Of a stretch of 64,000 nt of DNA, positions 47,632 to 64,000 are shown piece by piece. A model generated the notes under the pieces. The model worked only from the letters and a program-made list of their open reading frames with translations, did not search any database and was not told the origin of the DNA. This DNA comes from Krasilnikoviella flava. GTDB taxonomy: Bacteria > Actinomycetota > Actinomycetes > Actinomycetales > Cellulomonadaceae. Within the stretch, counting starts at the first letter, position 1, and each line of letters opens with the position of its first letter. The DNA lies in assembly GCF_900167525.1 (NCBI RefSeq), contig NZ_FUZQ01000005.1:446572-510571 (forward strand). Reading direction: 5' to 3'. Both the position numbers and the translations under genes were made by a program.

Positions 47632-48561
47632 TCACCGGGTCGCTTCCTGGGGTGCGAGGCCGAGCGCCGCGCGGCGTGTCGCGACGTATCTGCGCACGAA
47701 CTCGTCCGGGTCGACGTCGCCCGCCACCAGGCGCTGGTCATCCCCGCGCAGGGCGATCCAGTCGCCGCCGTGCGCCGCCGAGGCCCTCGCGCCGAGCACG
47801 GCGAGCTCCGGCTCGACGAGCTCGGCGAAGGTCAGGCCGAGATCGCCGCCGGCGAGGTAGGAGCACGTGGCGTCGAGGAACGCGCCGTACAGGTCGTCCT
47901 TTGTCGCGTCCAGGTGCGTGACGCCGTCGTCGCCCACGAGCGTCGCGACGAACCCGTAGCCCGTGCCCGCCTCCTGGACGTCGACGACGGCGGTGCGCCC
48001 GTCGTTCCAGCGCAGCTCCGCCCGGCGCCCTGTCCCGTCGAGCGCCCGAGCCGCCTCGATTCCCGGGCCGAAGATGCCGTGAAGCAGCGAGGATGCGTGG
48101 ATGCCGTAGTCCAGGTGGTGACCGAACGTGACCGCGTACGCGGACCGCGGACCGAGCCCGGCGCCCGTCCGCGCCGATGCCGACCAGCGCAGCGCAGAGC
48201 CTCCAGTGATCCGGGCGCCGTCGGCTGCCCATCCCTCGAGCGTGCGGATGTCCGCGACGCTGCCGGCGAATGGCTTGCAGACATGGACCCCGACCCCCGC
48301 CTCCACGAAGGGCCGCAGCCTCTCCACGTGGCGGTTCCAGTCGACGCTGTGCACGAACGCGGCGTCGACGTCGCCCACGATGTCCGCGGGGTCCTTGGCG
48401 ACCCGGCTGATCCCGCGTTCGGCGGCGTACGCGGCGGTATAGGAAGCGGTTGCGACGTCGTCACCGCCGACGACGGCGACGACGTCGTGGCCCCGTTCGA
48501 GGAGCAGCGGGTGGAAGGCGGCGGGGTGGGAGGTGTCCAGGTCAACGACTCCGATGCGCAT
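47632..48561 (-). CDS. Gfo/Idh/MocA-family oxidoreductase (first copy)
   Basis: NAD(P)-dependent oxidoreductase-like protein of 309 residues. The N-terminal Rossmann fold starts MRIGVVDLDTSHPAAFHPLL, lacking the usual GxGxxG (GVVDLDTSH), a variant seen in a subgroup of this superfamily. The lysine motif is VHVCKPFAGSV (EKP-like CKP), and GHHLDYGIHASSLLHG holds the HxxD/H active-site segment. The altered dinucleotide loop makes cofactor use uncertain. The ATG at 48561 lies 10 nt after CATAGT. Divergent from the regulator, so it is probably a target of it. Confidence 0.8.
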   Translation of the reverse strand: MRIGVVDLDTSHPAAFHPLLLERGHDVVAVVGGDDVATASYTAAYAAERGISRVAKDPADIVGDVDAAFVHSVDWNRHVERLRPFVEAGVGVHVCKPFAGSVADIRTLEGWAADGARITGGSALRWSASARTGAGLGPRSAYAVTFGHHLDYGIHASSLLHGIFGPGIEAARALDGTGRRAELRWNDGRTAVVDVQEAGTGYGFVATLVGDDGVTHLDATKDDLYGAFLDATCSYLAGGDLGLTFAELVEPELAVLGARASAAHGGDWIALRGDDQRLVAGDVDPDEFVRRYVATRRAALGLAPQEATR

Positions 48562-48693
48562 GCCGAAGAACACTATGAGTCACGACCATGATCCACAATA
48601 GGGCATGCACGAAATTCGAAATCAGCCCTCCGTAGAGCCCGCGTCCCATCGGAGCGCGGGCCCGTCGGGGGGTCACACGCCGCCCGCCGCCGC

Positions 48694-48699
48694 TACGCT
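48694..48699 (+). promoter_or_regulatory. -10 element of the PucR-like regulator
   Basis: TACGCT, the same hexamer as for dut and metH, but here about 30 bp before the start. It predicts a leader of about 22 nt with a GCGAGG Shine-Dalgarno-like sequence. Confidence 0.4.
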
Positions 48700-48727
48700 C
48701 GCGGGGTCGGGACGGGAAGCGAGGTTG

Positions 48728-50059
48728 ATGATGGCCGCACTCGGAGGTCCGGCGCCTGAGGGCGTCACGATCGGCGTCGTCGGCGCCGACAACTTCGTGC
48801 ACCGGATGGCAGGCGTCGCGCGCGAGGAGACGCGCACGCGGCTGCGGCTCGTCACGGCCGTCTACGATCGCGAGTCCGACGCGCACGAGAAGACGATGCG
48901 CATCATCGGCGACGTCGACGTCCTGCTGTTCGCCGGCCCGCTGCCGTACGACGTCGCCATGTCGGCCGGCCGGCTCCCGGTGCCTGCGACGTTCGTACCG
49001 ACGGGCGGCGCGGCACTGCCCACGACCCTGCTGCGCGGAGCGCTCGACGGGACCATCGACCCGGCACGGGTCAGCATCGACTCCGCCCTAGAGCGCGACG
49101 TCCGCGAGACGTACGCCGACCTCGGCGTGCCGCGGCGGCACGTCCACGTCATGGAGTACCACGAGTCCGTCGCACCCGAGCAGTTCCTCGCGTTCCACCG
49201 CGAGCTGTTCGAATCCGGACGCACGAGTGGCGCGATCACCACCGTTCCGTCCGTCGCCGCCGCGCTCACCGAGATCGGCGTCCCGAACCTCACGATGGTG
49301 CCCGCGCTGCTCAGCCTGCGGAACGCGCTGCGCACGGCCCGCCTCCTCGGCAGCGGCGCCCGCCTCGAGGACTCGCGCATCGCCGTGGTCATCGTCCGGC
49401 TCCCGTCCTCGGCGCTCCCGCACCGCACGAGCTCCAGCAACTACTGGTATCAGGAGCTCAAGCTCTCGCTGCACCGGGCCTTGCTGCACGACGCGCGCCA
49501 CATGGACGCAGCGGTCCTGCAGCGCGACGAGCACAGCTACCTCGTGATCACGACCATGGGCTCGCTGCGCTCGGGGACGGACGACCTCACACGCGCCCCC
49601 TTCCTCGCCTCGGTGCGCCAGGCGCTCGGGATCGAAGCCGAGGTCGGCATCGGCCTCGGCCGGACCACGCTCGAGGCGGAGGAGAACGCCCAGTCCGCCG
49701 TGAACCTGGTGGCCCGGGCCGGCAGCGACCTGGCCTACCTGGTCGGGACGCAGGGCAGCCCGATCGCACTGACCGACTCGGCCGACGACGACGCGCCCGA
49801 GCCGGCGCCCGTGGCGGACCCCCAGAACGAGACACTGCGCGAGATCATCACGCTGCTCGACGGATCGGGGGACGCGAGCCGCGTGGTCGACGCCGAGCGG
49901 ATCTCGCAGCTGCAGGGCGTCACGCTCCGCACCGCGCGCCGCACGCTCCGCTCGCTCGTGGACGCGGGGCTGGCGTGGCCGATGCCCCCCGCACGGGCAC
50001 AGAAGGTCGGGCGGCCGCCTGTGCGCTACCAGCTGTTGGACGAGCGCCTCACGGACTGA
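48728..50059 (+). CDS. transcriptional regulator with sensor, GGDEF/cyclase-like and winged-HTH domains
   Basis: Protein of 443 residues, not closely matched to a family I can name. Residues about 10-90 form an alpha/beta domain (VTIGVVGADNFVHRMAGVAR, DVDVLLFAGPLPYDVAM) reminiscent of PrpR-type sensors. The middle (about 200-330) ends with LGIEAEVGIGLGRTTLEAEE and NAQSAVNLVARAG, the pattern of degenerate GGDEF or cyclase-III palm domains found in PucR/CdaR regulators. The C-terminus (about 375-443) has a winged HTH (VDAERISQLQGVTLRTARRT, LRSLVDAGLAWPMP). It lies between the first Gfo/Idh gene and the hydrolase genes, so it is the likely local regulator. An ATG three bases on is equally possible. 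Confidence 0.7.
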   Translation: MMAALGGPAPEGVTIGVVGADNFVHRMAGVAREETRTRLRLVTAVYDRESDAHEKTMRIIGDVDVLLFAGPLPYDVAMSAGRLPVPATFVPTGGAALPTTLLRGALDGTIDPARVSIDSALERDVRETYADLGVPRRHVHVMEYHESVAPEQFLAFHRELFESGRTSGAITTVPSVAAALTEIGVPNLTMVPALLSLRNALRTARLLGSGARLEDSRIAVVIVRLPSSALPHRTSSSNYWYQELKLSLHRALLHDARHMDAAVLQRDEHSYLVITTMGSLRSGTDDLTRAPFLASVRQALGIEAEVGIGLGRTTLEAEENAQSAVNLVARAGSDLAYLVGTQGSPIALTDSADDDAPEPAPVADPQNETLREIITLLDGSGDASRVVDAERISQLQGVTLRTARRTLRSLVDAGLAWPMPPARAQKVGRPPVRYQLLDERLTD

Positions 50060-50133
50060 CCCGCCGCGGCCGCGCGCAATCGTCGCGGTCATTAAGCATG
50101 GACCGCAAGTGTCATTTGGCCCTGTACTTATGT

Positions 50134-50149
50134 CCTGCCCTCGGGCAGG
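50134..50149. promoter_or_regulatory. putative operator at the start of the hydrolase/transport cluster
   Basis: Inverted repeat CCTGCCC-TC-GGGCAGG ends 9 nt before the GTG of the deacetylase-like gene. TACTTA (50125-50130) just upstream is a possible -10, so the repeat would cover the transcription start. It could also form a hairpin in the leader. Confidence 0.45.
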
Positions 50150-50158
50150 CTGGGGCGC

Positions 50159-51925
50159 GTGACCACACCGCAGACCGTCGACCCCGCCCCCGAGACCGAC
50201 CCGACGTCCGCCATGGCGGGCGTGACGCTCTGGGCGTCGGGAAGGTCCGGCACACCCTCCCCGTGGGCCGCCTACGCCACCGAGGTGCTCGCGCACGCAG
50301 GCATCGCGCACACCACCTCCTCCGACCCGCGCGGCGTCGTTCTCGTCACCACACCCGTCACCGCCGACGACGCCGCCCGGCTCGCCTCGTTCGTCGCCGA
50401 CGGGGGCGCTCTCGTCCTCGCGACGGCGCCCGGCGCGCTCGCCGCGCTCGCCGGGGTGGAGGAGGGCGCAACGGTACGGACCGCGCAGGTCGAGATCGTG
50501 CCGGACGACGCCTGGACCCACCTCCCCCCACGGCCGCTGCGTGCCGTCGGTGGCGTCGAGCTCACACCCGCGCCGAGCACCCGCACGCTCGCGACCTGGC
50601 CCGGCGGCGCGGCAGCCGTGACCGTCCACACGCACGGCGACGGCGTCGTCCTCACCTTCGGCGCCGATCTCCTGCAGTCGGTCGTCCGCATCCAGCAGGG
50701 CTACGCCGTCACCGCCGACGGCGCCCCCGCCTCGGACGGGACCGCGCCCATCGACGACGACATCCTCAAGGCCGAGGACGGCATGGCCCTCGACCTCGAG
50801 ACGGACCGCGCCCTGCCGCCCCGCGAGGGCCCCGTGCCGGCCAACTACACGCACACCTATCCGCCGCCGTCAGCCGTTCCGATGTTCGACACACCGCACG
50901 CCGACTGGTGGCGCTCCCTCCTGCTGCAGGCGACCTGGTTCGCGGCGGAGCGTTCGGGCAGCGTCGTGCCATGGCTGGGCTACTGGCCCGCCGGGCTCTC
51001 AGCGATCGCGCACATGTCGCACGACTCCGACGGCAACAGCCCCGAAGACGGCCGCGCGGCGCTCGACGCGTTCGCCGACGCCGACGTCCAGGTGACGTGG
51101 TGCCAGGTGTTCCCCGGCGGGTACGGCCCCGAGATCTACGAGGAGATCACGGCCGCAGGGCACGAGCATGCACTGCACTACAACGCGATGCACGACGCCG
51201 ACCTCGCCTCGTGGGGCTGGCCGCAGATCCGCGCGCAGTACGCGTGGGCGCAGGCGGTGACCGGTCGCGAGCACATCGTCTCGAACAAGAACCACTACAC
51301 GCGCTGGGAGGGCTGGACGGAGTTCTACACCTGGTGCGAGCGGCTCGGCATCGAGATCGACGAGTCCCGCGGCCCGAGCAAGCAGGGCACCGTGGGCTTT
51401 CCTTTTGGGACGGCGCACGTCTCGTTCCCGCTCGCCGAGGACGGGTCCGAGCGCACGTTCCACGACGTGCTCAACCTGCCGCTCCACACCCAGGACCTCG
51501 CCTGGGCGGGGCACGCCTCGATCCGCGACGTGATCCTCGACGGCGCGCAGGAGCAGCACGGCGTCGCCCACTTCCTGTTCCACGGCCCGCACCTCAATAT
51601 CCGGCCGCTCACCCGCGCGGCGTGCCTCGAGCTCGCCGACGAGGCCCGGCGCCGCGGGATGGAGTGGTGGACCGCGGAGCGCATCAACGCGTGGGAGCGC
51701 GCCCGGCGCGGTGTGAGCGTCGAGGTCGTCGCCGACGGCGAGGAGCTCGTCCTCCGGGTCTCCTCCGACGCGTCCGTGGCCGGCGCGGCGATCCTCCTCC
51801 CGCCGGGCGTGAGCGTGGCGGGGCCGCCGCACGCGCTCACCGGCGTCACGCGCCACGGCCGGAAGTTCACGGAGCTCGCCGCCGACCTTCCCGCCGGGAC
51901 CACCACCTGGACGCTGGCGAGGTGA
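50159..51925 (+). CDS. GATase-like domain fused to a NodB-like polysaccharide deacetylase domain
   Basis: Protein of 588 residues, with no signal peptide. The N-terminal part (about 15-200) resembles class I glutamine amidotransferase/ThuA-like folds: VVLVTTPVTADDAARLASFV, then ADGGALVLATAPGALAAL. The centre (about 240-520) is deacetylase-like: AHMSHDSDGNSPEDGRAALD supplies His288-Asp289-x-Asp291 and AAGHEHALHYN supplies His335, His337 and His340, as in PuuE/PgdA-type metal centres. A short beta-rich tail ends the protein. Function as an N-deacetylase or related amidohydrolase is inferred. The GTG is followed by coupling to the next gene (GTGA overlap at 51922-51925). Confidence 0.6.
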   Translation: MTTPQTVDPAPETDPTSAMAGVTLWASGRSGTPSPWAAYATEVLAHAGIAHTTSSDPRGVVLVTTPVTADDAARLASFVADGGALVLATAPGALAALAGVEEGATVRTAQVEIVPDDAWTHLPPRPLRAVGGVELTPAPSTRTLATWPGGAAAVTVHTHGDGVVLTFGADLLQSVVRIQQGYAVTADGAPASDGTAPIDDDILKAEDGMALDLETDRALPPREGPVPANYTHTYPPPSAVPMFDTPHADWWRSLLLQATWFAAERSGSVVPWLGYWPAGLSAIAHMSHDSDGNSPEDGRAALDAFADADVQVTWCQVFPGGYGPEIYEEITAAGHEHALHYNAMHDADLASWGWPQIRAQYAWAQAVTGREHIVSNKNHYTRWEGWTEFYTWCERLGIEIDESRGPSKQGTVGFPFGTAHVSFPLAEDGSERTFHDVLNLPLHTQDLAWAGHASIRDVILDGAQEQHGVAHFLFHGPHLNIRPLTRAACLELADEARRRGMEWWTAERINAWERARRGVSVEVVADGEELVLRVSSDASVAGAAILLPPGVSVAGPPHALTGVTRHGRKFTELAADLPAGTTTWTLAR

Positions 51926-53190
51926 GCGCACCCGCCTTGCGGATCGGCGTCGACCGCACGGACGTCACGCCGCCGACACCGGTCCCGCTCGCCGGGTTCG
52001 CAGCACGGGCGGACCTGGGGCCGGCGACGGAGGTACTGTCCCCGCTGCACGTGCGCTCGCTCGCACTCCGCGCGGGCACCGCGGCACCCGTCGTGCTCGT
52101 CTCCGCCGACCTGCTCTGGTGGGGCGACGACGTCGTCGCGACGCTGCGCGAGGCCTACGCCGCGCGTTTCGGGCTGGACCCGGCTTCGCTCGTGCTGCAC
52201 GCGACGCACAACCACTCCGGCCCGCAGGTGGCGCGACGGATGACGCCGTCGCTGGGCGAGCCGGACGAGGACTACCTGGCGTTCCTCACGGACCGGACGC
52301 TCGCGAGCATCGAGCGCGCCCTGGCCGGCGAGACGCCCGTGCGCGTCCAGACGGCGCGCGCGGCCACCGATGTGGCAGTCGACCGGCGCTGGGCGCGCAC
52401 GGGTGGCGCCGTTCCCCGCTCGCCCATCGACCCCGATCTCACGGTGGTCAGCCTCGTAGACGACGACGGGGCTCCCGCGGCCGTGCTCACGCACCTCGCG
52501 TGCCACCCCGTGGTGCACCACGGCAACGCCGTCACCCCGGACCTCCACGGCACGGTCGCTGCTGCCCTCGAACGTGACACCACGCCGTTCGCGATGCCCT
52601 TGCAGGGGTGCTGCGGCGACGTGAACCCGGCCCGCTACGCGGCCGACGGCTCGTTCGCCGACGGCGACCAGGACGACGTCGAGCAGCTCGCCGCGGAGGT
52701 GGCGAGCGTGGCCAGAGACGCCCTCGCGCACGCCACGTGCGCCGGCGACGCCGCGCTGGCGGTGCGCCGTCGGCCCCTCGAGCTCCCGTTGCAGGACCGG
52801 TTGGCCCTGCCCCTGGTCGCGCGCATGGCGGAGCGGGACGACGTGCGGGGCGAGTGGGCCCGGCTCGCGCTGGAGGACCCGGGAGGATACGCACGCCCCC
52901 CCGTGCTCCAGCTCGTCCACCTCCGGTTGACGTCTGGGCTGTCTCTGCTCGGCATGTCCGGCGAGCCGGTGAGCGCCTACGGCCTCCACGTGCGCCGGGT
53001 GAGCGGCGGGACCTGCGTGCCGCTCGGCTACACCGACGGGATGACGACCTACCTCGTCACGGCCAAGCAGCTCGAGGAGGGCGGCTACGAACCGTGCGAG
53101 GCGCCCGTGTACTTCGGGATCCCGGCGCCGCTCGCTCCTGCCGCGGAGCAGGCGATCCGGACGGAGATCTCGGCCCTGGCGATGGGCTGA
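51922..53190 (+). CDS. neutral/alkaline ceramidase N-terminal-domain-like hydrolase
   Basis: Protein of 422 residues related to the N-terminal catalytic domain of neutral ceramidase: it begins RIGVDRTDVTPPTPVPLAGF, has VSADLLWWGDD and the zinc-site segment LHATHNHSGP (His96, His98), then LTHLACHPVVH and LQGCCGDVNPA. The C-terminal Ig-like domain of true ceramidases and a signal peptide are missing, so the enzyme is cytoplasmic and probably acts on an N-acyl bond in another compound. Its start overlaps the stop of the deacetylase-like gene (GTGA), so the two act together. Such short homologues are often found in sugar-catabolism loci. Confidence 0.78.
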   Translation: MSAPALRIGVDRTDVTPPTPVPLAGFAARADLGPATEVLSPLHVRSLALRAGTAAPVVLVSADLLWWGDDVVATLREAYAARFGLDPASLVLHATHNHSGPQVARRMTPSLGEPDEDYLAFLTDRTLASIERALAGETPVRVQTARAATDVAVDRRWARTGGAVPRSPIDPDLTVVSLVDDDGAPAAVLTHLACHPVVHHGNAVTPDLHGTVAAALERDTTPFAMPLQGCCGDVNPARYAADGSFADGDQDDVEQLAAEVASVARDALAHATCAGDAALAVRRRPLELPLQDRLALPLVARMAERDDVRGEWARLALEDPGGYARPPVLQLVHLRLTSGLSLLGMSGEPVSAYGLHVRRVSGGTCVPLGYTDGMTTYLVTAKQLEEGGYEPCEAPVYFGIPAPLAPAAEQAIRTEISALAMG

Positions 53191-53306: not shown

Positions 53307-53391
53307 GGGCAGTACCAGAGTTACGGACAGACCGAATTTGGATCGAGTCGAGGAGGACTCGATGGGACCGTCTACCGAGAGAGAGATCCCC

Positions 53392-55173
53392 ATGACCCGC
53401 ACGCGCTGCCGTCGTACCGCCCGCGTCGCCGCCCTCACCGCGGCGGCCACGCTCGCCCTCGCCAGCTGTTCGCTGTTCCCCGACTCCGGGGGTGGGGACG
53501 GCGGAGGCGCCGAGGCCGGCGGCAGCATCACCGTCCAGGCGACGAACTTCGCCCACATCGACCCTCAGAGCATCACGTTCGGCATGTGGCTGGTGCAGAT
53601 GGGTCTGCTCGAGGGGCTTGTGCTGCAGACGCCGGACGGGACCGACGTCCGCGAAGGCGTCGCCGACGAATGGGAGGTGAGCGAGGACGGACTCACCTAC
53701 ACGTTCCACCTGCGCGACGGAGTCACGTGGTCGAACGGCGAGCCCCTCACTGCCGCCGACTTCGAGTGGACGTACGAGCGCCTCCTCGACCCCGCGCGCG
53801 GCGACAGCGGAGTGACCACCGGAGCGTCGTCGTACCAGGTACCGCTCGGCATCCTCAACGCCGAGGAGTACAGCACCGGCGTCGTCACCGACTTCGACGA
53901 GGTCGGCATCGAGGCCGTCGACGACCAGACGCTCGAGTTCACCCTCGCGGCGCCGAACCCCGGCTTCGTCATGGGCCTCACCTACCCTTCGATGCTCCCG
54001 CTCAACCCCGACGCGGTCCAGGGCGAGGGCGACTGGCAGCAGCCCGAGAACTGGGTCGGCAACGGCCCGTACAACCTCGTGGAGTGGACGGCGAACTCGA
54101 GCATGCGGCTCGAGAAGAACCCCGAGTACTGGGACGCGGAGAACGTCGCGCTCGACGAGGTCAACGTCCAGCTCATTGAGCAGGGGTCGATCACGACCAC
54201 CGTGCCGTACGAGAACGGCGAGGTCGACATCCAGGCCATCAGCGAGCCGGCCGAGATCACCCGGTTCCTCGCCGACCCCGAGCTGAGCGAGCAGATGTAC
54301 GTGCTCGAGAACGCAGGGACGGCCTACCTGGCGCCGATCCACAGCGCGAACCCGATCCTCGAGGACCCGAACATCCGGCGCGCCCTGAGCCTTGGCCTCG
54401 GTCGGGAGGAGATCGCCGGCATCAGCGACATGACGTCGCCCGCCACAACACTGACGTCCCCGGCCACGCCGGGCTGGAGCGAGGAGATGGCCGCCCACGA
54501 CGCCATGTGGGGCGAGGACGCCGTCGCCGAGGCGCAAGAGATTCTCGCCGACGAGGGGTATCCGGACGGCGAGGGGTTCCCGACGCTGACCATCCTGGCC
54601 GGCTCCGACTTCCCGCAGCTCGACGCGATCATCGACACCTGGAACACGAACCTCGGGATCGAGGCGGTCAAGGACGTCGTGGAGGTCGGCGTCTACGTCG
54701 AGCGCCGCGATGAGATGCACGACGCGGACTACGTCGGCTACTGGTACGGGTCGTTCTCCGGGATCAGCACGTGGCCGTACCAGGTCGAGCAGCTGTGGTC
54801 CCCGGAAATGGTCCGCCAGGCGGGGCTCGACGCCGCCAGGTACGAGCAGTTCCTCGCCGTCCAGAACGACGCCGCGCTCGCGCCGGGCGACCGCACCAAG
54901 CAGCTCGAGGACATCCTCAGCACGGCCTCGACCCCCGAGGCGCAGGCGTTCGCCGAGCGGGTCGGGGAGGCCAAGTCGACGACCAATGAGGCCGAGCAGC
55001 AGGAGATCTTCTTCGACGCCGCGACCCTGCGCGAGGAGGCGGAGCTGCTGCTCCCGGTCGCGTGGAACGATGTCGTGTACGTCGCTCAGCCGCGCGTCCA
55101 GGGCCTCGAGATCCGTGCTCAGGCCGACCGGTACTACTTCAAGGACGTCTCGGTCGACGACGTGGCGGAGTGA
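53392..55173 (+). CDS. ABC transporter substrate-binding lipoprotein, family 5
   Basis: Extracellular solute-binding protein of 593 residues. The N-terminus is a lipoprotein signal: positively charged RTRCRRTAR, hydrophobic stretch, and lipobox LASC with Cys26. After a Gly-rich linker the SBP_bac_5 core runs from about residue 43: LLEGLVLQTPDG, EVSEDGLTYTFHLRDGVTWS, GEPLTAADFEWTYERLLDP, and NWVGNGPYNLVEWTANSSM. Family 5 proteins bind oligopeptides, but also oligosaccharides and nickel; the locus suggests a glycan product. First gene of a five-gene transport run. ATG 53392 was preferred for the signal peptide. Confidence 0.92.
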   Translation: MTRTRCRRTARVAALTAAATLALASCSLFPDSGGGDGGGAEAGGSITVQATNFAHIDPQSITFGMWLVQMGLLEGLVLQTPDGTDVREGVADEWEVSEDGLTYTFHLRDGVTWSNGEPLTAADFEWTYERLLDPARGDSGVTTGASSYQVPLGILNAEEYSTGVVTDFDEVGIEAVDDQTLEFTLAAPNPGFVMGLTYPSMLPLNPDAVQGEGDWQQPENWVGNGPYNLVEWTANSSMRLEKNPEYWDAENVALDEVNVQLIEQGSITTTVPYENGEVDIQAISEPAEITRFLADPELSEQMYVLENAGTAYLAPIHSANPILEDPNIRRALSLGLGREEIAGISDMTSPATTLTSPATPGWSEEMAAHDAMWGEDAVAEAQEILADEGYPDGEGFPTLTILAGSDFPQLDAIIDTWNTNLGIEAVKDVVEVGVYVERRDEMHDADYVGYWYGSFSGISTWPYQVEQLWSPEMVRQAGLDAARYEQFLAVQNDAALAPGDRTKQLEDILSTASTPEAQAFAERVGEAKSTTNEAEQQEIFFDAATLREEAELLLPVAWNDVVYVAQPRVQGLEIRAQADRYYFKDVSVDDVAE

Positions 55174-55175
55174 AC

Positions 55176-56231
55176 ATGGGTTACCTCGAGTTCTTCGGCC
55201 GGCGCCTCGCGCGCGTGGGTTTCTCCCTCGTCGTCATCTCGGCTCTCACGTTCACGCTGCTGCAGCTGGCTCCGGGCAGCTTCGCGGACATCCAGCGGGC
55301 CAGCTCCGGTTCGACCGGGATGGCGGGTGCTGCGGCGCAGGAGGTCGCCGGCCAGTTCGCGACGCGGTACGGCGACGACGTCCCCGCCTGGCAGCAGTAC
55401 CTCGTCTTCATGAAGGGTGCGCTGACGTGGGACCTGGGGCCGTCGTACAAGTACCCGGCGCAGTCGGTGGAGAGCATCATCGCCCAGGGGTTCCCGGTGT
55501 CGGCGACCCTCGCCGTCCTCGCCACGCTCATCGCGCTGGCGATCGCGATCCCGACCGGGGTGTTCGCGGCACTCAAGCAGCGCACGGCGTGGGACACGGG
55601 GTCGATGTTCGTGCTGACGCTCGGGCATGCGCTGCCGAACTACCTCACGGCGGTGTTCCTGGTCCTGATCTTCGCGGGCGCGATGCACGTCCTCCCCGCG
55701 GCCGGGTGGGACGGCCCGCAGCACCTCATCCTTCCCGTCATCGCCCTGGCGATCGGACCCCTCGCCGTCCTGGCCAGATACGTCCGGTCCTCCATGCTGG
55801 ACACCCTGAGCGAGGAGTACGTGACGGCGGCGATCGCGAAGGGCGGGCGCCCCGGCGTCGTCATCCGCAAGCATGTGCTGCGCAACTCTCTGATCCCGCT
55901 CGTGACGGTCACGGGACCGATGCTCGCCGCGCTGATGACCGGGACGGTGTTCATCGAGACGATGTTCCGGATCCCCGGGCTCGGCCTCTCCTTCACCCAG
56001 GCCGCGTCCAGCCGTGACATGCCGCTCCTCATGGGGACGACGCTCTTCTTCGCGATCATCCTCATGGCGACGAATCTCGTGGTCGACCTCGTGTACGGCC
56101 TCCTCGACCCGCGCGTGCGCGCAGAAAGTGGGCGAAAGCTCCGTGGCAGCCGTATCAGCAGGAAGGACGTCGGCCGGCCCGGCGCCGGAAGCAGTGAAGG
56201 CAGCAGGGCCGTGGTCCAAGGCCTGGGGTAG
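55176..56231 (+). CDS. ABC transporter permease, DppB/OppB type
   Basis: Inner-membrane permease of 351 residues with six predicted membrane segments; starts MGYLEFFGRRLARVGFSLVV and carries the coupling-helix EAA motif EEYVTAAIAKGGRPGVVIRK. The start lies 2 bp after the stop of the binding-protein gene. After the usual family end (LLDPRVR) it has an extra tail of about 35 residues, rich in Gly, Ser and Arg, whose coding sequence overlaps the start of the next permease gene. Confidence 0.92.
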   Translation: MGYLEFFGRRLARVGFSLVVISALTFTLLQLAPGSFADIQRASSGSTGMAGAAAQEVAGQFATRYGDDVPAWQQYLVFMKGALTWDLGPSYKYPAQSVESIIAQGFPVSATLAVLATLIALAIAIPTGVFAALKQRTAWDTGSMFVLTLGHALPNYLTAVFLVLIFAGAMHVLPAAGWDGPQHLILPVIALAIGPLAVLARYVRSSMLDTLSEEYVTAAIAKGGRPGVVIRKHVLRNSLIPLVTVTGPMLAALMTGTVFIETMFRIPGLGLSFTQAASSRDMPLLMGTTLFFAIILMATNLVVDLVYGLLDPRVRAESGRKLRGSRISRKDVGRPGAGSSEGSRAVVQGLG

Positions 56232-57048
56232 GTTCCGGAGCAACCGGATGGCCTTCATCAGCCTGTGGGTCGTCCTGGTCCTCCTGCTCGTCGCGATCTT
56301 CGCGCCGCTCGTCGCCCCGTACCCGCCGCAGACGACGGACTACGGCCAGCAGCTCGCTCCCATCGGCTCGCCGGGGCACCCCCTCGGGACCGACACGCTG
56401 GGCCGCGACATCCTCTCCCGGCTGGTGTACGGGTTCCGGACGGCGTTCCTCGTCGCGTTCGTGGCCGAGGTGATCTCCGTCGTCGTGGCGCTGAGCGTGG
56501 GCGTCGTCGCCGGTTACCGGGGCGGCAGGGCCGACGGCGCCCTCATGGCGGCGACGGACATCATGTACGCATTCCCGACGTACCTGTTCGCCGTCCTCCT
56601 GGTGACGGTGTTCGGCCGGAACTTCTGGTCCGTGATGGCGGCGATCGCCGTCGCCGGATGGGTCACCCAGGCCAGGTTGGTCAGGGCGCAGGTGATGACC
56701 CTCAAGAAGCGGGACTTCGTCGAGGCGGCCCAGGGCATGGGTGCGAAGGGACCGACGATCGCGACCCGCTACATCCTCCCGAACGCACTCGGACCGCTCC
56801 TCGTCACGACGAGCTTCGCCGTCCCGGCCGCGATCACCACGGAGGCGGGTCTCTCAATGCTCGGGCTCGGGATCGCCGACATGCCGTCCTGGGGAGCGAT
56901 GATCAACGAGGGCGTGCGGTTCGCGACGTCGTCGCCGCACATGATCATCTCGCCGGCGATCGCGTTCGCGGTCACCCTGCTGGCGTTCACCTGGATGGGC
57001 GACGGCGTCCGCGACGCCTTCGACATCACGTCGGAGGGGCGGCGATGA
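56143..57048 (+). CDS. ABC transporter permease, DppC/OppC type
   Basis: Second permease, about 301 residues, six membrane segments, with LGTDTLGRDILSRLVYGFRT and the EAA motif KRDFVEAAQGMGAKGPTIAT. The start is uncertain: GTG codons at 56128, 56143 and 56194 all lie within the end of the first permease gene, and the ATG at 56248 would remove the RFRSNRM segment that normally precedes the first membrane helix. I use 56143. The 56128-56231 overlap is unusual. Followed by the ATPase gene with an ATGA overlap. Confidence 0.88.
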   Translation: MAAVSAGRTSAGPAPEAVKAAGPWSKAWGRFRSNRMAFISLWVVLVLLLVAIFAPLVAPYPPQTTDYGQQLAPIGSPGHPLGTDTLGRDILSRLVYGFRTAFLVAFVAEVISVVVALSVGVVAGYRGGRADGALMAATDIMYAFPTYLFAVLLVTVFGRNFWSVMAAIAVAGWVTQARLVRAQVMTLKKRDFVEAAQGMGAKGPTIATRYILPNALGPLLVTTSFAVPAAITTEAGLSMLGLGIADMPSWGAMINEGVRFATSSPHMIISPAIAFAVTLLAFTWMGDGVRDAFDITSEGRR

Positions 57049-58778
57049 GCAGGCGACCCGCACGCGTGCAGCTCGACGAGGCAGCCCCTCTGCTCGAGGT
57101 CTCGGGCCTGCGGACCGGGTTCCGCCGTGCCGACGGCGACGATTTCGTGGCAGTGAACGGCGTTTCGTTCACACTCCGCCCGGGTCGGTCCCTGGCGATC
57201 GTGGGTGAGTCCGGGAGCGGGAAGAGCGTGACGGTGCGGTCGCTGCTGCGCCTCCTGCCGAAGACGGGACGGATCCTGGACGGCGAGGCCCGGTTCGCGG
57301 GCGTCGACCTCGTCGGATCGCCGGACAAGGCGATGCGGACGATTCGAGGGCGCGAGATCGGGATGGTCTTCCAGAACGCCATGGAGGCGCTCAACCCGAC
57401 GATCCCGGTGGGGCGCCAGCTCGCGGAAGCCCTGACCTGGCACGGCCTGTGCTCACGGTCCGAGGCCCGGGAACGAGCGATCGCCACCCTGGCAGACGTC
57501 GGGATCCCGGGCCCGGAGCGGCGGGCGAGGATGTACCCGTTCCAGCTCTCGGGGGGCATGCGGCAGCGCGCGATGATCGCCATGGCGATCATCGCCGAGC
57601 CTCGGCTCGTGATCGCCGACGAGCCCACCACGGCGCTCGACGTCACGGTGCAGGCGCAGGTGCTCGACCTGCTCGCCGAGATCAAGGCCCGCGGCACGGG
57701 CATGGTGATGGTGACTCACGACCTCGGGGTCGCCCGCAGGTTCTGCGACGACGTGCTCGTCATGAACCAGGGGCAGGTCGTCGAGACCGGCCCGATCGCG
57801 GACGTCCTGGACTCCCCGCGCGAGCCGTACACGCGGATGCTCCTCGACGCGACGCTGGACGTGGGCGACGTCGCCCGTGCCGACGCCCGACCGGTCGTGC
57901 TCGCGGCTCCCGCGAAGCGTGCACCGCTCGAGGGCTCCGCCAGGGTCGCCGATCGCGGCACCGGTGACGAGGTGCCGGCCTCGCCCGCGGGTGCGCCGAT
58001 CGTCGTCGCCGAGCACCTCAAGAAGTCGTTCACCTCGCGCGGGGGCACCACGCACGCGGTGCGGGACGTCAGCCTGAGCATCGAGCGCGGCCGGACCCTC
58101 GGCCTGGTCGGCGAGAGCGGGAGCGGGAAGTCGACGGTGGCCCGCCTCGTCATGGGGCTGCACGAACCGGACTCCGGGCGGGTGCTCCTCGACGGGCACG
58201 ACGTGCACGGCGACGTGTCGGACGTCCAGCGCCGCCGGATGCAGATGGTGTTCCAGAACCCGTACGGCTCCCTCCTTCCGCACTACACGGCGGGCGCGAA
58301 CATCACGGAACCACTGCGCTTGCAGGGGATCGGCACACCTGCGGAGCGCATCGAACGGGCCTCCGAGCTGCTGCAGCTGGTAGGGCTCTCGCGGGACGAC
58401 GCGCGGCGGTACCCCCAGCAGTTCAGCGGCGGTCAGCAACAGCGGATTGCGATCGCTCGGGCGCTCGCGCCGGAGCCCGACGTCCTGGTGTGCGACGAGC
58501 CGACGTCGGCCCTGGACGTGTCGATCCAGGCCCAGATCCTCGACCTGCTGTCGGAGATCCAGGACCGGCTCGGCGTCGCCTACCTGCTCATCTCCCACAA
58601 CCTGGCGGTGGTGGAGACGATGTCGGACGAGGTCGCCGTCATGAAGGACGGCGCGATCGTCGAGCGCGGTGACCGCAGGACGATCTTCGCCTCCCCGCAG
58701 CACCCGTACACCCATCAGCTCCTGGGCGCGATCCTTCCCGTCCGCGGGGTCGGTGCCACCAGCGCAGCGACAGCTTGA
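57045..58778 (+). CDS. fused double ABC ATPase (DppD-DppF type)
   Basis: Protein of 577 residues with two ABC domains in tandem. Domain 1 (about 15-260): Walker A VGESGSGKSVTVR, signature LSGGMRQR, Walker B LVIADEPTTALD. Domain 2 (about 325-565): Walker A VGESGSGKSTVAR, signature FSGGQQQR, Walker B VLVCDEPTSALD. The oligopeptide-type C-terminal extensions are present (SPREPYTRMLLDA; SPQHPYTHQLLGA). The fusion replaces the usual separate D and F subunits and completes a binding protein-permease-permease-ATPase importer. ATG 57045 overlaps the upstream stop (ATGA) and has GGAGG upstream. Confidence 0.93.
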   Translation: MSRRPARVQLDEAAPLLEVSGLRTGFRRADGDDFVAVNGVSFTLRPGRSLAIVGESGSGKSVTVRSLLRLLPKTGRILDGEARFAGVDLVGSPDKAMRTIRGREIGMVFQNAMEALNPTIPVGRQLAEALTWHGLCSRSEARERAIATLADVGIPGPERRARMYPFQLSGGMRQRAMIAMAIIAEPRLVIADEPTTALDVTVQAQVLDLLAEIKARGTGMVMVTHDLGVARRFCDDVLVMNQGQVVETGPIADVLDSPREPYTRMLLDATLDVGDVARADARPVVLAAPAKRAPLEGSARVADRGTGDEVPASPAGAPIVVAEHLKKSFTSRGGTTHAVRDVSLSIERGRTLGLVGESGSGKSTVARLVMGLHEPDSGRVLLDGHDVHGDVSDVQRRRMQMVFQNPYGSLLPHYTAGANITEPLRLQGIGTPAERIERASELLQLVGLSRDDARRYPQQFSGGQQQRIAIARALAPEPDVLVCDEPTSALDVSIQAQILDLLSEIQDRLGVAYLLISHNLAVVETMSDEVAVMKDGAIVERGDRRTIFASPQHPYTHQLLGAILPVRGVGATSAATA

Positions 58779-58821: not shown

Positions 58822-61800
58822 GTGACCATCCACCCTTCCGTGCCCCGAGCGCGGATCGATCTCGCTCTCAGCCGCCGCACCCTGCTGCGCCTCGCGGCTG
58901 CCGGCGCCGGTACCTACGGCCTGACGACCCTCGAGGCCGGCTCGAGCGCCGCCGCACCCCCCGGACCGGCCGGCACCGCCACGCCGTCGTCCACCCCGGT
59001 GAAGACCCGCGCGACGTATTACACGCCCGAGAAGGTGGCCGCTGCGCGGGCGAACGTCGCGGCGCTCGCCTGGGCGGCAGCCATGCGCGACGAGGCGGTC
59101 GCCGGGGCCCAGCCGCTGGTCGACGCGGGCGAGGACTGGCTGTGGCGCTCGATCACGAGCCAGGGCCTCCCCCGCAGCTACGCCGTGAACCAGGACCTCG
59201 GCTCGCCCGTGACCGGTGAGGAGATCTTCGAGTACGGGAACTACCCATGGCTCGCCGACCCGTACGCCCGACCGTGGAAGCTCGAGGACCCCTCAAGCGG
59301 CTACCTGTTCCCGACGAACGACTTCGCCGCGTTCTACGCGAGCGCCCTCGACGAGCACGGGAACTTCCAGCGGGAGCTCGGCGACCCCGCCCATCTCGTC
59401 AACACGCTCTACCCGGAGCGGGGCCCGACGTGGGGCGTCGACGACGGCTGGGGCTGGATCGACGACGACGGCGCCAAGTGGACGTTCTGCGCGTACTACG
59501 CGCACTGGTTCGGATGGTACGGCCCGCCGGCGGACGTCAACGGCGTCAAGCAGACGAGCCTGCGGCAGGGGCTGATGCGGCTCCGCGACTCGTACCTGCT
59601 CACGGGCGACGCGCAGTACGCGCGGCTCGGCGTCATCCTGCTCGACCGCTTCGCGGACCTCTACCCCGCCATGGACACGTCGGTGTACCCGCGGGCCGAG
59701 GGGTACCTGCACTCGGACGGGCTGCGCGGAGTCGGCAAGGCCGTGGGGTGCATCTGGGAGAGCGGCCTCACGCGGACGCTCGTCGAGTGCTACGACGCTT
59801 TCTACCCGGTGATCGCGGAGACAGACGACGCCGGCGTCGTCGAGTACCTGTCGGCACGCTCGGACGAGTACGGGCTCGCTCCCAAGGCCACGGTCGCCGA
59901 CATCCGCGCGAACATCGAGAACGGCATCCTGCGACAGGTGTTCCCGGCGGTGCAGGACACATCGATCTTCGGGAACTTCGGCATGCACCAGGCGACGCTG
60001 GCGATGACCGCCGTCGTGCTCGACGAGCCCGCCTCGGCCGCCGAGTGGCTCGACTTCCTGTTCGCGGCCGGCGGCCTGACCGGGAGCGCGGGATCGTGGC
60101 GCAACACGGGCGGGAACATCGGCCCGACGCTGGTCGACCAGGTCGACCGTGACGGCTGGTACGGCGAGGGCGCGCCGGGTTACAACATCCTGCCGATCAG
60201 CAATCTGCAGTCCGTGGCGGACGCGCTCGCCGGGTACGACACCTACCCCGCCGCCGACCTGTACGAGCACCCGAAGTACGCCGCGATGTTCGCCGGGCGG
60301 CCCGGGCTGACGATGCTCGGCGCGTACACGCCGTCGATCGGCGATTCCGGCCAGACGGGCAAGCCGTACCTGCTCGGGCTCGCGACGCAGTACGTCGCCG
60401 CCTTCGAGCGCTACGACCGCGCGGTCGACGCCCAGATGGCGCACCGGATGAACGGCGACTCGACGGACGGGCTGCGGGGCGACGTGTTCAGCGCCGACGC
60501 CGCGCGCATCACGGAGCGGATCCAGGCCGTGATCGACACCGAGGGTCCGCTCGACCTGCCGAGCGAGAACCTCACCGGGTTCGGGCTGGCGGCACACCGC
60601 ACGGGAACCGGGGCGCACGCTCGCGGGCTCACCACGTTCTACGGCACGAACCGTCTGCACGGTCACCGCAATGGTCTCGCGCTGGGGCTGTTCGCCCACG
60701 GCCTCGACCTCGCCCCCGGCCTGGGCTATCCCGAGTTCGCGGACAACAACGCGCGGCGCCGGGAGTGGGAGAGCAACACGGTGGCGAGCGCCACCGTCGT
60801 CGTGGACGCGACGCCGCACGCCACCCAGGTGGTGGGGCGACCCTTGGCGTTCCGTTCGGGCGGCGACGGCGTGCACCTCACGGACGTCGAGGCGCCGGCG
60901 GCATACCCCGACGCGTCCCGGTACCGGCGGACGTCGATGCTCGTGGACGTCGACGACGAGCGCAGCTACGTGCTCGACCTCTTCCGGGTGCACGGCGGGA
61001 GCGAGCACGTGTTCTCGTTCCACGCGGCCGAGGGTCCGGCGACGGCGGACGGCGTCACCCTGGCGGCACAGCCGACCGGTACGTACGCCGGCCCGGACGT
61101 CGAGCCGCCGAACCCCACCGGCCCGGCTCGTCCCGGCGCGAGCGGGTTCGACTGGCTGACGCGCGTCGAGCGCGGGACGCCTTCCGGCGCGTTCTCCGTC
61201 GACTGGGACATCACGGACACGTACGGCGTGCACGAGGTCGATCCGGACGTGCACGTGCGGCTCACCATGCTCACGCCCGTGGCGGAGGTCGCGCTCGCCG
61301 ACGGCATCCCGCCGCGCAACAAGCCGGGCAACCCGGCCTCGCTGCGGTTCATGCTGGCCAAGCGGTCCGGCGAGGGTCTCCGGAGCACGTTCACGTCGGT
61401 CATCGAGCCGTACGTCGACTCCCCCGTCGTTGCCGACGTCCGGGCGCTGCCGGTGACGTCACCGGACGGTGGGGCTGTGGACGCCGACGACGTGACCGCC
61501 GTCGCCGTGACGCTCGCCGACGGGCGGGTCGACTGGCTGGTGCACGACGCCGCGGGAGGCCGGCGCCTCGAGGTGGACGGGCGCATCGTGGTGGACGGGG
61601 CGTTCGCGCTCGTCCGCTTCGACGCGAGCGGCCGGCCGGAACGAGCCGTGGGGCACGACGCCGTCGAGGTGCGCGAGGGCTCGCGTGTGCTGGTTCGCCC
61701 CCGAGGTGGCGCCACGGGCATCGTGACCGGGCGGACGGCAGAGCTCGCGGCGTCGAGCACGCTCGTCGTCGAGCTGGACGCGCCGATGGACGACGCCGAC

Positions 61801-62028
61801 GCACAGTCGTTCGTCGGGCGGTGCGTGTACGTGGAGGACGACGGCGTCCGAAACGCCGTCTACCGCGTCACCGCTGCGCGATGCTCGGGCCGCCGGCTGG
61901 AGCTCGACGTGCCGACGACGTTCGTGCGGTCGTACGTCCGTGCGGCGAACCCGGATGCCGGGTTCCGCTACGACGTCGAGCCGGGCCGTACCGTGCAGAT
62001 CCCGGCCGATGGCGCCTGGACCCGCTAG
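58822..62028 (+). CDS. Tat-exported heparinase II/III-family protein (candidate polysaccharide lyase)
   Basis: Protein of 1068 residues. The N-terminus carries a twin-arginine signal (SRRTLLRLAAAGAGTYGL) and an Ala-rich cleavage region, so it is exported folded. Residues about 60-500 are a helical alpha-toroid (KWTFCAYYAHWFGWYGPP; FGNFGMHQATLAMTAVVLDE; NTGGNIGPTLVDQV). From about 600 comes the heparinase II/III beta domain, with TFYGTNRLHGHRNGLALGLF and LGYPEFADNNARR, where His612-614 area forms the family HGH motif. A further beta-rich tail completes it. The substrate is unknown; lyase action on a uronate-containing or related glycan is inferred. GTG 58822 follows GAGGAG. It lies directly behind the importer genes. 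Confidence 0.82.
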   Translation: MTIHPSVPRARIDLALSRRTLLRLAAAGAGTYGLTTLEAGSSAAAPPGPAGTATPSSTPVKTRATYYTPEKVAAARANVAALAWAAAMRDEAVAGAQPLVDAGEDWLWRSITSQGLPRSYAVNQDLGSPVTGEEIFEYGNYPWLADPYARPWKLEDPSSGYLFPTNDFAAFYASALDEHGNFQRELGDPAHLVNTLYPERGPTWGVDDGWGWIDDDGAKWTFCAYYAHWFGWYGPPADVNGVKQTSLRQGLMRLRDSYLLTGDAQYARLGVILLDRFADLYPAMDTSVYPRAEGYLHSDGLRGVGKAVGCIWESGLTRTLVECYDAFYPVIAETDDAGVVEYLSARSDEYGLAPKATVADIRANIENGILRQVFPAVQDTSIFGNFGMHQATLAMTAVVLDEPASAAEWLDFLFAAGGLTGSAGSWRNTGGNIGPTLVDQVDRDGWYGEGAPGYNILPISNLQSVADALAGYDTYPAADLYEHPKYAAMFAGRPGLTMLGAYTPSIGDSGQTGKPYLLGLATQYVAAFERYDRAVDAQMAHRMNGDSTDGLRGDVFSADAARITERIQAVIDTEGPLDLPSENLTGFGLAAHRTGTGAHARGLTTFYGTNRLHGHRNGLALGLFAHGLDLAPGLGYPEFADNNARRREWESNTVASATVVVDATPHATQVVGRPLAFRSGGDGVHLTDVEAPAAYPDASRYRRTSMLVDVDDERSYVLDLFRVHGGSEHVFSFHAAEGPATADGVTLAAQPTGTYAGPDVEPPNPTGPARPGASGFDWLTRVERGTPSGAFSVDWDITDTYGVHEVDPDVHVRLTMLTPVAEVALADGIPPRNKPGNPASLRFMLAKRSGEGLRSTFTSVIEPYVDSPVVADVRALPVTSPDGGAVDADDVTAVAVTLADGRVDWLVHDAAGGRRLEVDGRIVVDGAFALVRFDASGRPERAVGHDAVEVREGSRVLVRPRGGATGIVTGRTAELAASSTLVVELDAPMDDADAQSFVGRCVYVEDDGVRNAVYRVTAARCSGRRLELDVPTTFVRSYVRAANPDAGFRYDVEPGRTVQIPADGAWTR

Positions 62029-62978
62029 GAGTACTGCTGTCGGTCGGGTGTGTCCGCGCGCACCATGGAGCGCGGGCGCACCGTACGGCCGGTCCTGACC
62101 GACTCGCGGACGGCCTCGGCGAGCGCGACGGCCGCGACGCCGTCGGCTGCCTCCGTGACCGCGGCTCGGCCGGTCGCGATCGCGTCGAGCACGTCGGCCA
62201 TCTGGATCGCGTGGGCGTCACCGGGCGGAGTGGCAGGTTGATGCTGGGTCCACCAACGCTCGTCGAGCACACCCTCCGCCCCGACGACCTCCCATGCCGT
62301 CGAGAAGGGCCTCTCGACGTGCTCCCAGGACGCGGTGACGCAGCTGACCGCTCCAGAAGCGTGCCGCAGCAGGGCCGCACAGGACGTGCTCGCACCGGAC
62401 GGAGCGGCGGCGTCGACAGCGACGACCTCGCCAGCGATCCAGCGCGCCACGTCCAGGTCGTGGATCATCAGGTCGGTCTGAACTCCACCCGACACCGCGG
62501 GGTCCGCGAACCACGTCGCCCACGTCGGAGGGCCGCCGGTCCGCGACAGCCGAGTCATCCGGACCGTGCCGATCTCTCCCACGCGCGCGGCGGCCCGGGC
62601 TGCGGCGTACGGCTGCATGTGGCGCACCACGTGCGCCGGGAACAGGCGCACACCCGCCCGCTCGCACGCGAGCGCCGACGCCGCGGCGTCGGCGGATCCG
62701 AGGGACAGCGGCTTCTCGCACATCACGTGCACGCCCGCGGACGCGGCGCGCTCCACGAGCTCGCGGTGGCTCGGGGTCGGCGTCGCGACGACGACCAGTC
62801 CCACGGCATCGAGCAGGTCGTCGTACGTCTGGTATCGCGGCAACCCCGAGAGGACCCCCGGGTGTCGGGCCGACCTGGAGTACACCCCGACCTCCATGCC
62901 CAACGCGAGAAGTGCCGCGACGTGGCGCTTCGCCATGTACCCGGCACCGACTATCCCGACCCGGGAAACACCGCTCAT
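62025..62978 (-). CDS. Gfo/Idh/MocA-family oxidoreductase (second copy)
   Basis: NAD(P)-dependent oxidoreductase of 317 residues with a classical Rossmann motif VGIVGAGYMAKRHVAALL, the lysine motif VMCEKPLSLG (EKP) and the active-site segment VQTDLMIHDLDVARW (DxxxHDxD). This one, unlike the copy at 47632, looks catalytically normal. It probably oxidises a sugar or cyclitol hydroxyl. The ATG at 62978 overlaps the stop of the DegT-type gene (ATGA), so the two are coupled. Its end overlaps the heparinase-like gene tail to tail by 4 bp. Confidence 0.92.
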   Translation of the reverse strand: MSGVSRVGIVGAGYMAKRHVAALLALGMEVGVYSRSARHPGVLSGLPRYQTYDDLLDAVGLVVVATPTPSHRELVERAASAGVHVMCEKPLSLGSADAAASALACERAGVRLFPAHVVRHMQPYAAARAAARVGEIGTVRMTRLSRTGGPPTWATWFADPAVSGGVQTDLMIHDLDVARWIAGEVVAVDAAAPSGASTSCAALLRHASGAVSCVTASWEHVERPFSTAWEVVGAEGVLDERWWTQHQPATPPGDAHAIQMADVLDAIATGRAAVTEAADGVAAVALAEAVRESVRTGRTVRPRSMVRADTPDRQQYS

Positions 62979-64000
62979 CGACCGGCCCCGGCGTGCACCT
63001 TCTGGAGCGCGGCGGCGATGTCCGCGACGTCGTCGGAGGTGTACCTCTCGTTCCAGGCGATGACGAGCAGTCGCGCGGCGATGAGCTCCTCGGTCGTCGG
63101 GCACAGGCCCGGCGCGTACACCGGGACGGCATCGGCCGGCGGCGAGCTCAGCGGGTAGCCCGACGACCCGTACGTCAGACGCTCGGTGAACACCGGTGTC
63201 AGGTAGAGCGGTCGTTGGATGTACCCGCCCGACGCCGGGATCCCCTCGGCCGCCAGCGCCCGTGCGAACCAGTGCGCGTCCGCGCCGACGGCGTCCGGCT
63301 CGACGAAAACCGGGAACTGCCAGTAGCTGTTCCCCTCGCTCGCGGACGGGGTGAGCCCCGCCAGCCCCGCGACGACTTCGGTCAGAGCCTTCGCGGTCCG
63401 GCGGCGGTCGTCCACGACGTCGGCGAGCCGCGTCAGCTGCACCCGCGCGACGGCAGCCTGGAGCTCGGTCATCCGGTAGTTGAGCCCAAGGAACAGGTGT
63501 GTGCGCTCGTCGGTGTCGCGCGGCCACGCCTTGTCCGCGAACAGTCTCACGCGCCGCGCGAACGCGTCGTCGGCGGTGATGGTGAGGCCACCGTCGCCGG
63601 CGGTGATGTGCTTCGACTGCTGCAGGCTGAAGCAGCCGAGGTGACCGACGGTGCCCGCGAGCGCGCCGTCCGGACCGACCGCCGTGAGGTACGCCTGCGC
63701 GCAGTCCTCGATGAGCACGATGCCGTGTGCGTCGGCGAGCTCGCGCAGCTGCGCGACCGGTGCCGGCTGCCCGAACAGGTGGACGGCGATGATCGCCCGC
63801 GTGCGGGGCGTGATGTGTTCGCGCACCGACTCGACATCGAGGTTGCCCGTGGCGGGGTCGACGTCGGCGAACACCGGTACCGCGTTCTGCGCCAGGATCG
63901 GCAGCACGGTCCCGGCGTCGCTCAGGCCGGTCGTGATGATCTCGTCGCCGGGATCCGGGTCGACGGCGGCGACGGCCAGATGGATCGCCGACGTCCCCGA
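62975..64000 (-). CDS. DegT/DnrJ/EryC1/StrS-family aminotransferase (5' end beyond the window)
   Basis: PLP-dependent aminotransferase of the sugar/cyclitol type; about 341 codons are visible and the N-terminal part, including GTSAIHLAV at the edge, continues past the right border. Signatures: DPGDEIITTGLSDAG, FADVDPATGNLDVESV, IIAVHLFGQPAP, LIEDCAQAYLTAVG, and the PLP lysine in SLQQSKHITAGDGG. The Lys is followed by LNYRMTELQAAV. Coupled to the Gfo/Idh gene, a pairing used in amino-sugar and aminocyclitol biosynthesis and breakdown. Here, within a catabolic locus, it may remove an amino group after oxidation. Confidence 0.93.
   Translation of the reverse strand, partial: SGTSAIHLAVAAVDPDPGDEIITTGLSDAGTVLPILAQNAVPVFADVDPATGNLDVESVREHITPRTRAIIAVHLFGQPAPVAQLRELADAHGIVLIEDCAQAYLTAVGPDGALAGTVGHLGCFSLQQSKHITAGDGGLTITADDAFARRVRLFADKAWPRDTDERTHLFLGLNYRMTELQAAVARVQLTRLADVVDDRRRTAKALTEVVAGLAGLTPSASEGNSYWQFPVFVEPDAVGADAHWFARALAAEGIPASGGYIQRPLYLTPVFTERLTYGSSGYPLSSPPADAVPVYAPGLCPTTEELIAARLLVIAWNERYTSDDVADIAAALQKVHAGAGR

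Follow-up and report, generated by a model that had tools for sequence, protein, structure and literature searches.

Gram-positive bacteria are known to carry loci for polysaccharide use in which the lyases are of the heparinase II/III or PL17 type. Here, we describe a locus (genes g01-g16) of Krasilnikoviella flava that begins in a stretch of 64,000 nucleotides (the window; contig C5:446572-510571 of a genome of 4.85 Mb in 10 contigs) and that shares with those systems an exported lyase, an ATP-binding cassette (ABC) importer, intracellular sugar enzymes and a probable local regulator. It differs from them in that a core of DegT aminotransferases, a CE4-like protein and a ceramidase-fold protein replaces the kinase/aldolase set, and in that the importer is of the Opp type. 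The component families, and the plan of lyase, importer and sugar enzymes, are already known; we did not encounter a recurrent coupling of CE4-like and DegT proteins for breakdown among the titles and abstract starts listed by searches of an open-licence library, a weak negative. We read the locus, with a probability of somewhat less than 60%, as a catabolic locus, probably acquired horizontally, whose substrate is a glycan, or oligomers of it, that contains uronic acid and N-acylated amino sugars. An earlier note on this DNA had proposed the breakdown of an N-acylated amino glycan, and every gene that it named is present in the open reading frame list at the position it was given.

Conservation of the locus core

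The gene content, conservation, co-occurrence, folds and motifs of the locus are observed. Its central genes are a probable regulator without a Pfam or NCBIfam match (g02; 48605..50059, plus strand), a putative deacylase of the CE4/NodB-like kind that has a GATase-like domain at its N-terminus and was assigned from its predicted fold and an alignment (g03; 50159..51925, plus), a hydrolase of the neutral-ceramidase fold with the altered Ser motif GDVNP, whose match to PF04734 is below the cut-off (g04; 51922..53190, plus; E 1e-5), the importer genes g05-g08, and two aminotransferase genes recognised by Pfam, DegT1 (g11; 62975..64222, minus strand, cut by the window edge and inside the window to 64000) and the divergent, AHBA-synthase-like DegT2 (g12; 64319..65593, plus). 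The family-5 importer was rightly described as complete, since it has an SBP_bac_5 solute-binding lipoprotein (g05; 53338..55173, plus; PF00496 4.4e-68), two permeases, of the OppB type (g06; 55173..56231, plus; Pfam/NCBIfam scans) and of the OppC type (g07; 56014..57048, plus; an open reading frame whose real start is probably more internal), and one fused double ATPase of the OppDF type (g08; 57045..58778, plus; Pfam/NCBIfam scans). Coordinates above 64000 are extended coordinates, obtained by extending the contig and calling genes to the right of the window.

The g03 protein is present in seven of 297 genomes of the order, including that of the host; the remaining six all come from a single family (f13, Ruaniaceae) and include matches to Occultella aeris, Occultella gossypii and Candidatus Ruania gallistercoris, and the five congeners of the host sampled among the 297 lack it. 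Across 396 genomes of the phylum, it was found in two, the host and an actinobacterium, G517 (G and L numbers denote the relatives' genomes and neighbourhoods). Scanning a contig collection yielded 11 loci, eight of them new (four in Kribbella, two in Dactylosporangium and two in Paenibacillus), and a plasmid collection gave no match. Counting that of the window, 17 copies were collected, distributed over 16 neighbourhoods from Ruaniaceae, Kribbella, Dactylosporangium, Paenibacillus, G517 and the host, genome G223 having two copies ~34 kb apart. It should be noted that the gene caller overlooked some genes or put them in the wrong frame (e.g., g04 in G223), so that tblastn was used alongside, and that the names pectate-lyase-like, SSS symporter, LacI, DedA-like, RidA-like, M81 and D-threonine-aldolase-like were assigned solely by inspecting translations.

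ABC-importer genes are found in 16/16 neighbourhoods and a DegT gene in 13/16, the three exceptions being both Dactylosporangium neighbourhoods and that of G295. DegT2 (E<=1e-90) occurs in eight of the 297 order genomes, namely in 7/7 with g03 and in 1/290 without it, most of these positives coming from one family and not being independent events. The single genome without g03, G175, has retained the regulator and a ceramidase-like gene besides DegT2; no g03 could be found in it. The same set was also sought in other genomes, and in another family the core genes stay together with their order unchanged, at identities of 61-94%. The Ruaniaceae genome G223 has 15 of the 16 locus genes at 72-94% identity in the arrangement of the window, only g10 being missing, and the order regulator, g03, g04, solute-binding protein, permeases, ATPase, DegT1, DegT2 recurs in G189, G063 and G285. 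Orthologs of g02 adjoin g03 in G223, G189, G063, G285, G245, G295 and two of the four Kribbella neighbourhoods. In Kribbella, DegT directly follows g03, with an ATGA overlap available, in all four cases, an Opp-type importer being no more than 10 kb away. Both Paenibacillus loci have in a row a PF07940 protein, a sugar-type ABC importer, g03 (33-34%) and, directly next to it, DegT (39-40%); the binding protein of L047 has a Pfam match and that of L046 none at 1e-5. G517 has DegT, the importer, g03, a SIS protein, a ceramidase-like protein and an Amidohydro_3 protein, with g16, g15, g02 and g01 sited ~16-20 kb from g03. The DegT pair lies 18 kb from g03 in G245 and on a contig other than that of g03 in G295. 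These observations support the view that the core (g03 and DegT) is a conserved, catabolic-looking unit whose two components travel together.

A chance gathering of genes in a variable region is hardly credible in the face of the same order in another family, the gene overlaps and the co-occurrence control, which largely refute it for g02-g08 with DegT1 and DegT2. What speaks for it is that the interval between the flanking genes metH and parE varies in length in five congeners. The link of g14-g16 to the rest is weaker, g16 (E<=1e-60) being present in 21 of the 297 order genomes, and g10 (a Gfo/Idh oxidoreductase; 62025..62978, minus) was seen in no locus but that of the window. The idea of a peptide importer with unrelated neighbours was dropped, as synteny and co-occurrence argue against it.

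The CE4-like and ceramidase-fold proteins

The likeness of g03 to CE4/NodB deacetylases (5lgc, 2vyo, 2c1i) lies in the barrel fold. Neither the g03 of the window nor its L044 relative has a Pfam match to Polysacc_deac_1, the match of the Paenibacillus relative L046 (4.8e-4) is below the cut-off, and a single-sequence search of the PDB with g03 gave nothing useful. The structure predicted from 16 sequences (mean predicted local distance difference test score, pLDDT, of 69.7; residues 180-244 and 376-434 weak) has the deformed (beta/alpha) barrel of CE4/NodB enzymes, and in Foldseek this barrel matched the CE4 enzymes 5lgc (4.4e-5; TMt 0.50) and 2vyo (7.7e-5; TMt 0.63); domains of GH5/GH164-type enzymes were also matched, which we take to correspond to the N-terminal part. 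The canonical CE4 motifs are TFDDG and H(S/T)xxH or HxxxH. Unlike the known deacetylases, g03 has SHDxD (SHD[SAT]D) and GHExxxH and carries the extra GATase-like domain; these two motifs, together with NKNH, RGP, GFxFGxxH, QDL and LFH, are constant in the 16 aligned sequences, and the G517 protein, outside this alignment, has SVDSD. To judge from the alignment, the constant motifs are reminiscent of the CE4 motifs without being identical to them.

The reading frames of g03 and g04 overlap by 4 bases. A single-sequence PDB search with g04 found nothing, while its profile matched the neutral ceramidase of P. aeruginosa (2zws) at 2.3e-10 and its model (mean pLDDT 65.9) matched that fold at 3.4e-15, so that both the profile of the neutral/alkaline ceramidase N-terminal domain and the fold are recognised. 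With neutral ceramidases (2zws, 4wgk), g04 shares the fold and the N-terminal domain sequence, including a THTHSGP-type stretch. It is shorter (~421 amino acids), and in place of the ceramidase catalytic motif GDVSPN, which supplies the Ser nucleophile, it has GDVNP in five of six sequences and GQINT in G517. A hydrolase of altered chemistry would be a fair description of the modelled protein. In the window and in G223, G189, G063 and G285, g04 adjoins g03; a distant relative lies one gene from g03 in G517 and beside DegT1 in G245 and G295. The pairing of a NodB-like with a ceramidase-like protein in the earlier note is upheld by the overlap and by both folds, but not by Pfam, whose matches are absent or below the cut-off, nor by canonical motifs. 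Because the active sites of both proteins depart from these motifs, the idea that g03 and g04 are two N-acyl-cleaving amidases may be called plausible and nothing firmer.

DegT aminotransferases and Gfo/Idh dehydrogenases

DegT1 and DegT2 both match the family profile and have the pyridoxal phosphate (PLP)-lysine motif, which is present in the DegT of each of the 15 neighbourhood sets examined, a collection that leaves out the DegT-free Dactylosporangium loci. The nearest solved chain to DegT2 is AHBA synthase (1b9h; 1.5e-81), and both proteins have AHBA synthase and 2-deoxy-scyllo-inosose aminotransferases among their matches. DegT2 overlaps by 4 bases with g13 (GfoC; Gfo/Idh by Pfam; 65590..66642, plus), which in turn overlaps to the same extent with g14 (GfoD; Gfo/Idh by Pfam; 66639..67622, plus), and an equal overlap joins DegT1 to g10. 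The solved chains nearest to GfoC are 3q2k (4e-45) and 3q2i, with a wide gap before the third; 3q2k we take to be WlbA, the UDP-GlcNAcA 3-dehydrogenase. With the DegT/DnrJ/EryC1/StrS enzymes (AHBA synthase 1b9h; WbpE) that work with Gfo/Idh partners, the locus thus shares the family, the PLP-lysine motif and, in the window and G223, the pairing. Because GfoC and DegT2 resemble enzymes making 3-amino sugars, a substrate of this kind is a lead suggested by sequence likeness.

DegT and Gfo/Idh proteins are classically paired in amino-sugar synthesis, and this, together with the likeness of GfoC to 3q2k, might suggest that the bacterium makes or remodels an amino-sugar-containing glycan of its own envelope. 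We consider this very unlikely. Unlike biosynthetic DegT systems, the locus has a catabolic-looking context without nucleotide diphosphate (NDP)-sugar or glycosyltransferase genes; no glycosyltransferase, nucleotidyltransferase or flippase was recognised among g01-g16, and the importer, exported lyase, hydrolases and DHDPS-family protein suit breakdown. The matches of the DegT proteins would also fit a substrate that is taken up and degraded as a small natural product instead of a polymer, namely an N-acylated amino sugar or aminocyclitol of the kanosamine or aminoglycoside kind, with the lyase-like protein as a local addition; the Opp-type importer, the inconstant heparinase and the Amidohydro_3 and SIS proteins of G517 agree with this. 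Such a substrate is nevertheless unlikely given the PL6, GH123 or heparinase genes of several variants and the hexuronate-type genes of G517.

Polysaccharide-degrading genes and the proposed pathway

The note's exported heparinase-like protein is confirmed as g09 (58822..62028, plus), which has a PF07940 domain over the cut-off (3.2e-6) and, by eye, a twin-arginine N-terminus of the twin-arginine translocation (Tat) type. Its C-terminal part gave profile matches to the PL17 enzyme AlgL17 (1.1e-10) and to Uly1040 (5.5e-10), and the alignment with AlgL17 contains an HGH..L motif, which makes it a putative polysaccharide lyase of the heparinase II/III type. In G245, the stretch that holds g02, g03, the importer genes, the DegT pair and a class III aminotransferase also encodes a PL6 chondroitinase-B-like protein (9.8e-64) and a GH123-catalytic protein (3.4e-14); G295 encodes a GH123-catalytic protein (4.6e-15) on the same contig as its DegT pair. 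KDPG-aldolase, PfkB, mannitol-dehydrogenase and enolase-superfamily genes adjoin g01-g02 in G517, and we read them as a hexuronate route via mannonate and 2-keto-3-deoxygluconate. It is because variant loci carry PL6, GH123-catalytic, heparinase or hexuronate-type genes that we favour a glycan of uronate and N-acyl-hexosamine.

These genes could also belong to an ordinary glycosaminoglycan locus of the chondroitin, dermatan or hyaluronan type, with DegT in a side role, for instance on an unusual end-group. The chondroitinase-B-like and GH123 genes of G245 would fit such a locus, as would the genes that follow g16 elsewhere, coding for N-acetylglucosamine (GlcNAc) 2-epimerase and amidohydrolase in G223 and for a glucosamine-isomerase-family protein in G119. 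We regard it as improbable, in that the conserved core consists of DegT and g03, the lyases are not constant, and no NagB-type gene was recognised in the window's locus.

The earlier note had suggested that the usual sugar kinases and aldolases, absent from the window, may lie beyond its right edge. The rightward extension showed that the window does cut the locus, which runs ~5.9 kb further, to 69858, and there we found DegT2, the two Gfo/Idh genes g13 and g14, an NAD-epimerase-family gene (g15; Pfam; 67739..68755, plus) and a DHDPS-family gene (g16; 68755..69858, plus; Pfam E 4.8e-5, narrowly over the cut-off). The last two do lie past the edge, at 67739-69858; no sugar kinase was recognised there. 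In six further g16 neighbourhoods (G119, G220, G216, G273, G074 and G013), g15 adjoins g16 every time, so that the pair is a wider module; ABC importers also accompany it (L078-L083), as do NagA-like and glucosamine-isomerase-family genes (G119) and ceramidase-like genes (G220 and G216).

If the locus does serve the catabolism of such a glycan, the polymer would be cut by g09 and its oligomers imported through the Opp-type importer, whereupon the CE4-like and/or the ceramidase-fold hydrolase may take off acyl groups. The two DegT aminotransferases, each here coupled to a Gfo/Idh dehydrogenase, would turn the amine into a ketone, which the Gfo/Idh partner may reduce or oxidise; the DegT2-GfoC pair, akin to enzymes making 3-amino sugars, would run backwards. 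The epimerase-like and DHDPS-family enzymes would then lead the carbon skeleton to aldol cleavage. In this pathway, we infer the substrate, the activities of the hydrolases and the direction of transamination.

Several points weigh against this pathway. The DegT family is known mainly for biosynthesis, and the direction assumed here is therefore inferred, and SBP_bac_5 importers often carry peptides. The canonical TFDDG and H(S/T)xxH motifs were not found in any of the 16 aligned g03 sequences, nor the catalytic Ser of GDVSPN, replaced by Asn, in g04. No sugar kinase was recognised in the locus, including the part past the window edge. The two Dactylosporangium neighbourhoods have no DegT (a class III aminotransferase lies ~9 kb off in its place, with a sugar-type ABC importer), and the second g03 copy of G223 (75%; L021, C1:3737808-3739532) is without a DegT of its own. 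The coupling of DegT with Gfo/Idh that the earlier note described is real in the form of the overlaps, but g10 is the partner of DegT1 in the window only, and g13 the neighbour of DegT2 only in the window and G223. The proposed glycan-breakdown unit likewise stands as conserved, catabolic-looking and linking g03 with DegT, but a PF07940 heparinase is present in only four of the 16 neighbourhoods (the window, G223 with two, and both of Paenibacillus; the other 12 were probed by tblastn with g09 within the available stretches), GH123 in two and PL6 in one. Finally, the host genome gave no match (E<=1e-5) for a large secreted beta-propeller-like protein that accompanies other loci.

This protein, recognised by eye, is seen in the G223, G245, G295, Paenibacillus and Dactylosporangium loci (L046:287-3415, L044:7416-9959, L019:8282-11128, L031:12702-15338 and L053:3906-6584), and those of L031 and L019 have no Pfam match. 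Neither have proteins of 501 and 322 amino acids that had been read by eye as Glce-like and GH20-like. Beside the second g03 copy of G223 are, by eye, pectate-lyase-like and Gfo/Idh-like genes. A PL8-type lyase of G245 (L052:14520-16940; Pfam 1.4e-69) lies ~9 kb past DegT1 and was not counted as a locus member, with unrelated-looking genes in between. The host genome has seven PF07940 places; those at C10:822623-828026 and C6:133145-143274 (L032, L034) belong to separate polysaccharide loci, the one on C6 with a chondroitinase-B-like protein.

Borders and origin of the locus

At the left border of the locus is a LacI-family gene (46550..47490, plus), degraded and with a broken frame, whose family was assigned by eye from the sequence and which probably lies outside the working unit; in G223, a seemingly intact LacI gene was seen by eye ~5 kb beyond the g16 ortholog. 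The first locus gene, g01 (47632..48573, minus), is Gfo/Idh-like with a PF01408 match below the cut-off (E 0.0035) and is divergent from g02, an arrangement also found in G223 (75%) and G517 (56%). The broken LacI-family gene is adjoined by metH on the left, and g16 is followed by DedA-like and RidA-like genes (by eye) and then by a gyrase-B-type gene (Pfam; short name parE).

The flanking metH and parE are on one contig in all five congeners, which lack g03, at distances of 9.8, 11.5, 11.8, 23.9 and 27.2 kb, compared with 26.6 kb in the host; the interval is a variable region in the genus. Eleven of the 15 locus proteins shared with G223 are 81-94% identical and the remaining four (g01, g03, g04 and g14) 73-77%, compared with 74% for parE over a longer stretch; metH was not found in G223. 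In G189 and G063, metH is 77% and parE 79% identical. Because the locus is absent in the five congeners and highly identical to the Ruaniaceae copy, these comparisons, which have few yardsticks, suggest that it was acquired horizontally. The guanine plus cytosine content, the same in the locus as in its surroundings, gives no added support for transfer.

Implications

A bolder idea, which we put forward tentatively, is that the locus represents an undescribed amino-sugar catabolism in which a CE4-like deacylase and DegT act in series, the first removing the N-acyl group and the second transaminating to a keto sugar, followed by Gfo/Idh reduction, in a way that would bypass NagA/NagB; it might have been spread by transfer across Actinomycetota and Paenibacillus and possibly be directed at uronic acids, of the 3-amino or 2,3-diamino type, in bacterial glycans. 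If true, these bacteria would feed on what other microbes make, glycans or amino-sugar products, and the locus would provide new hydrolases, a CE4-like one with a GATase-like domain and a ceramidase-fold one without the usual serine, with a testable class of substrates. If DegT indeed removes the amine, a family used to annotate amino-sugar biosynthesis would also degrade, and many gene clusters would have to be reread.

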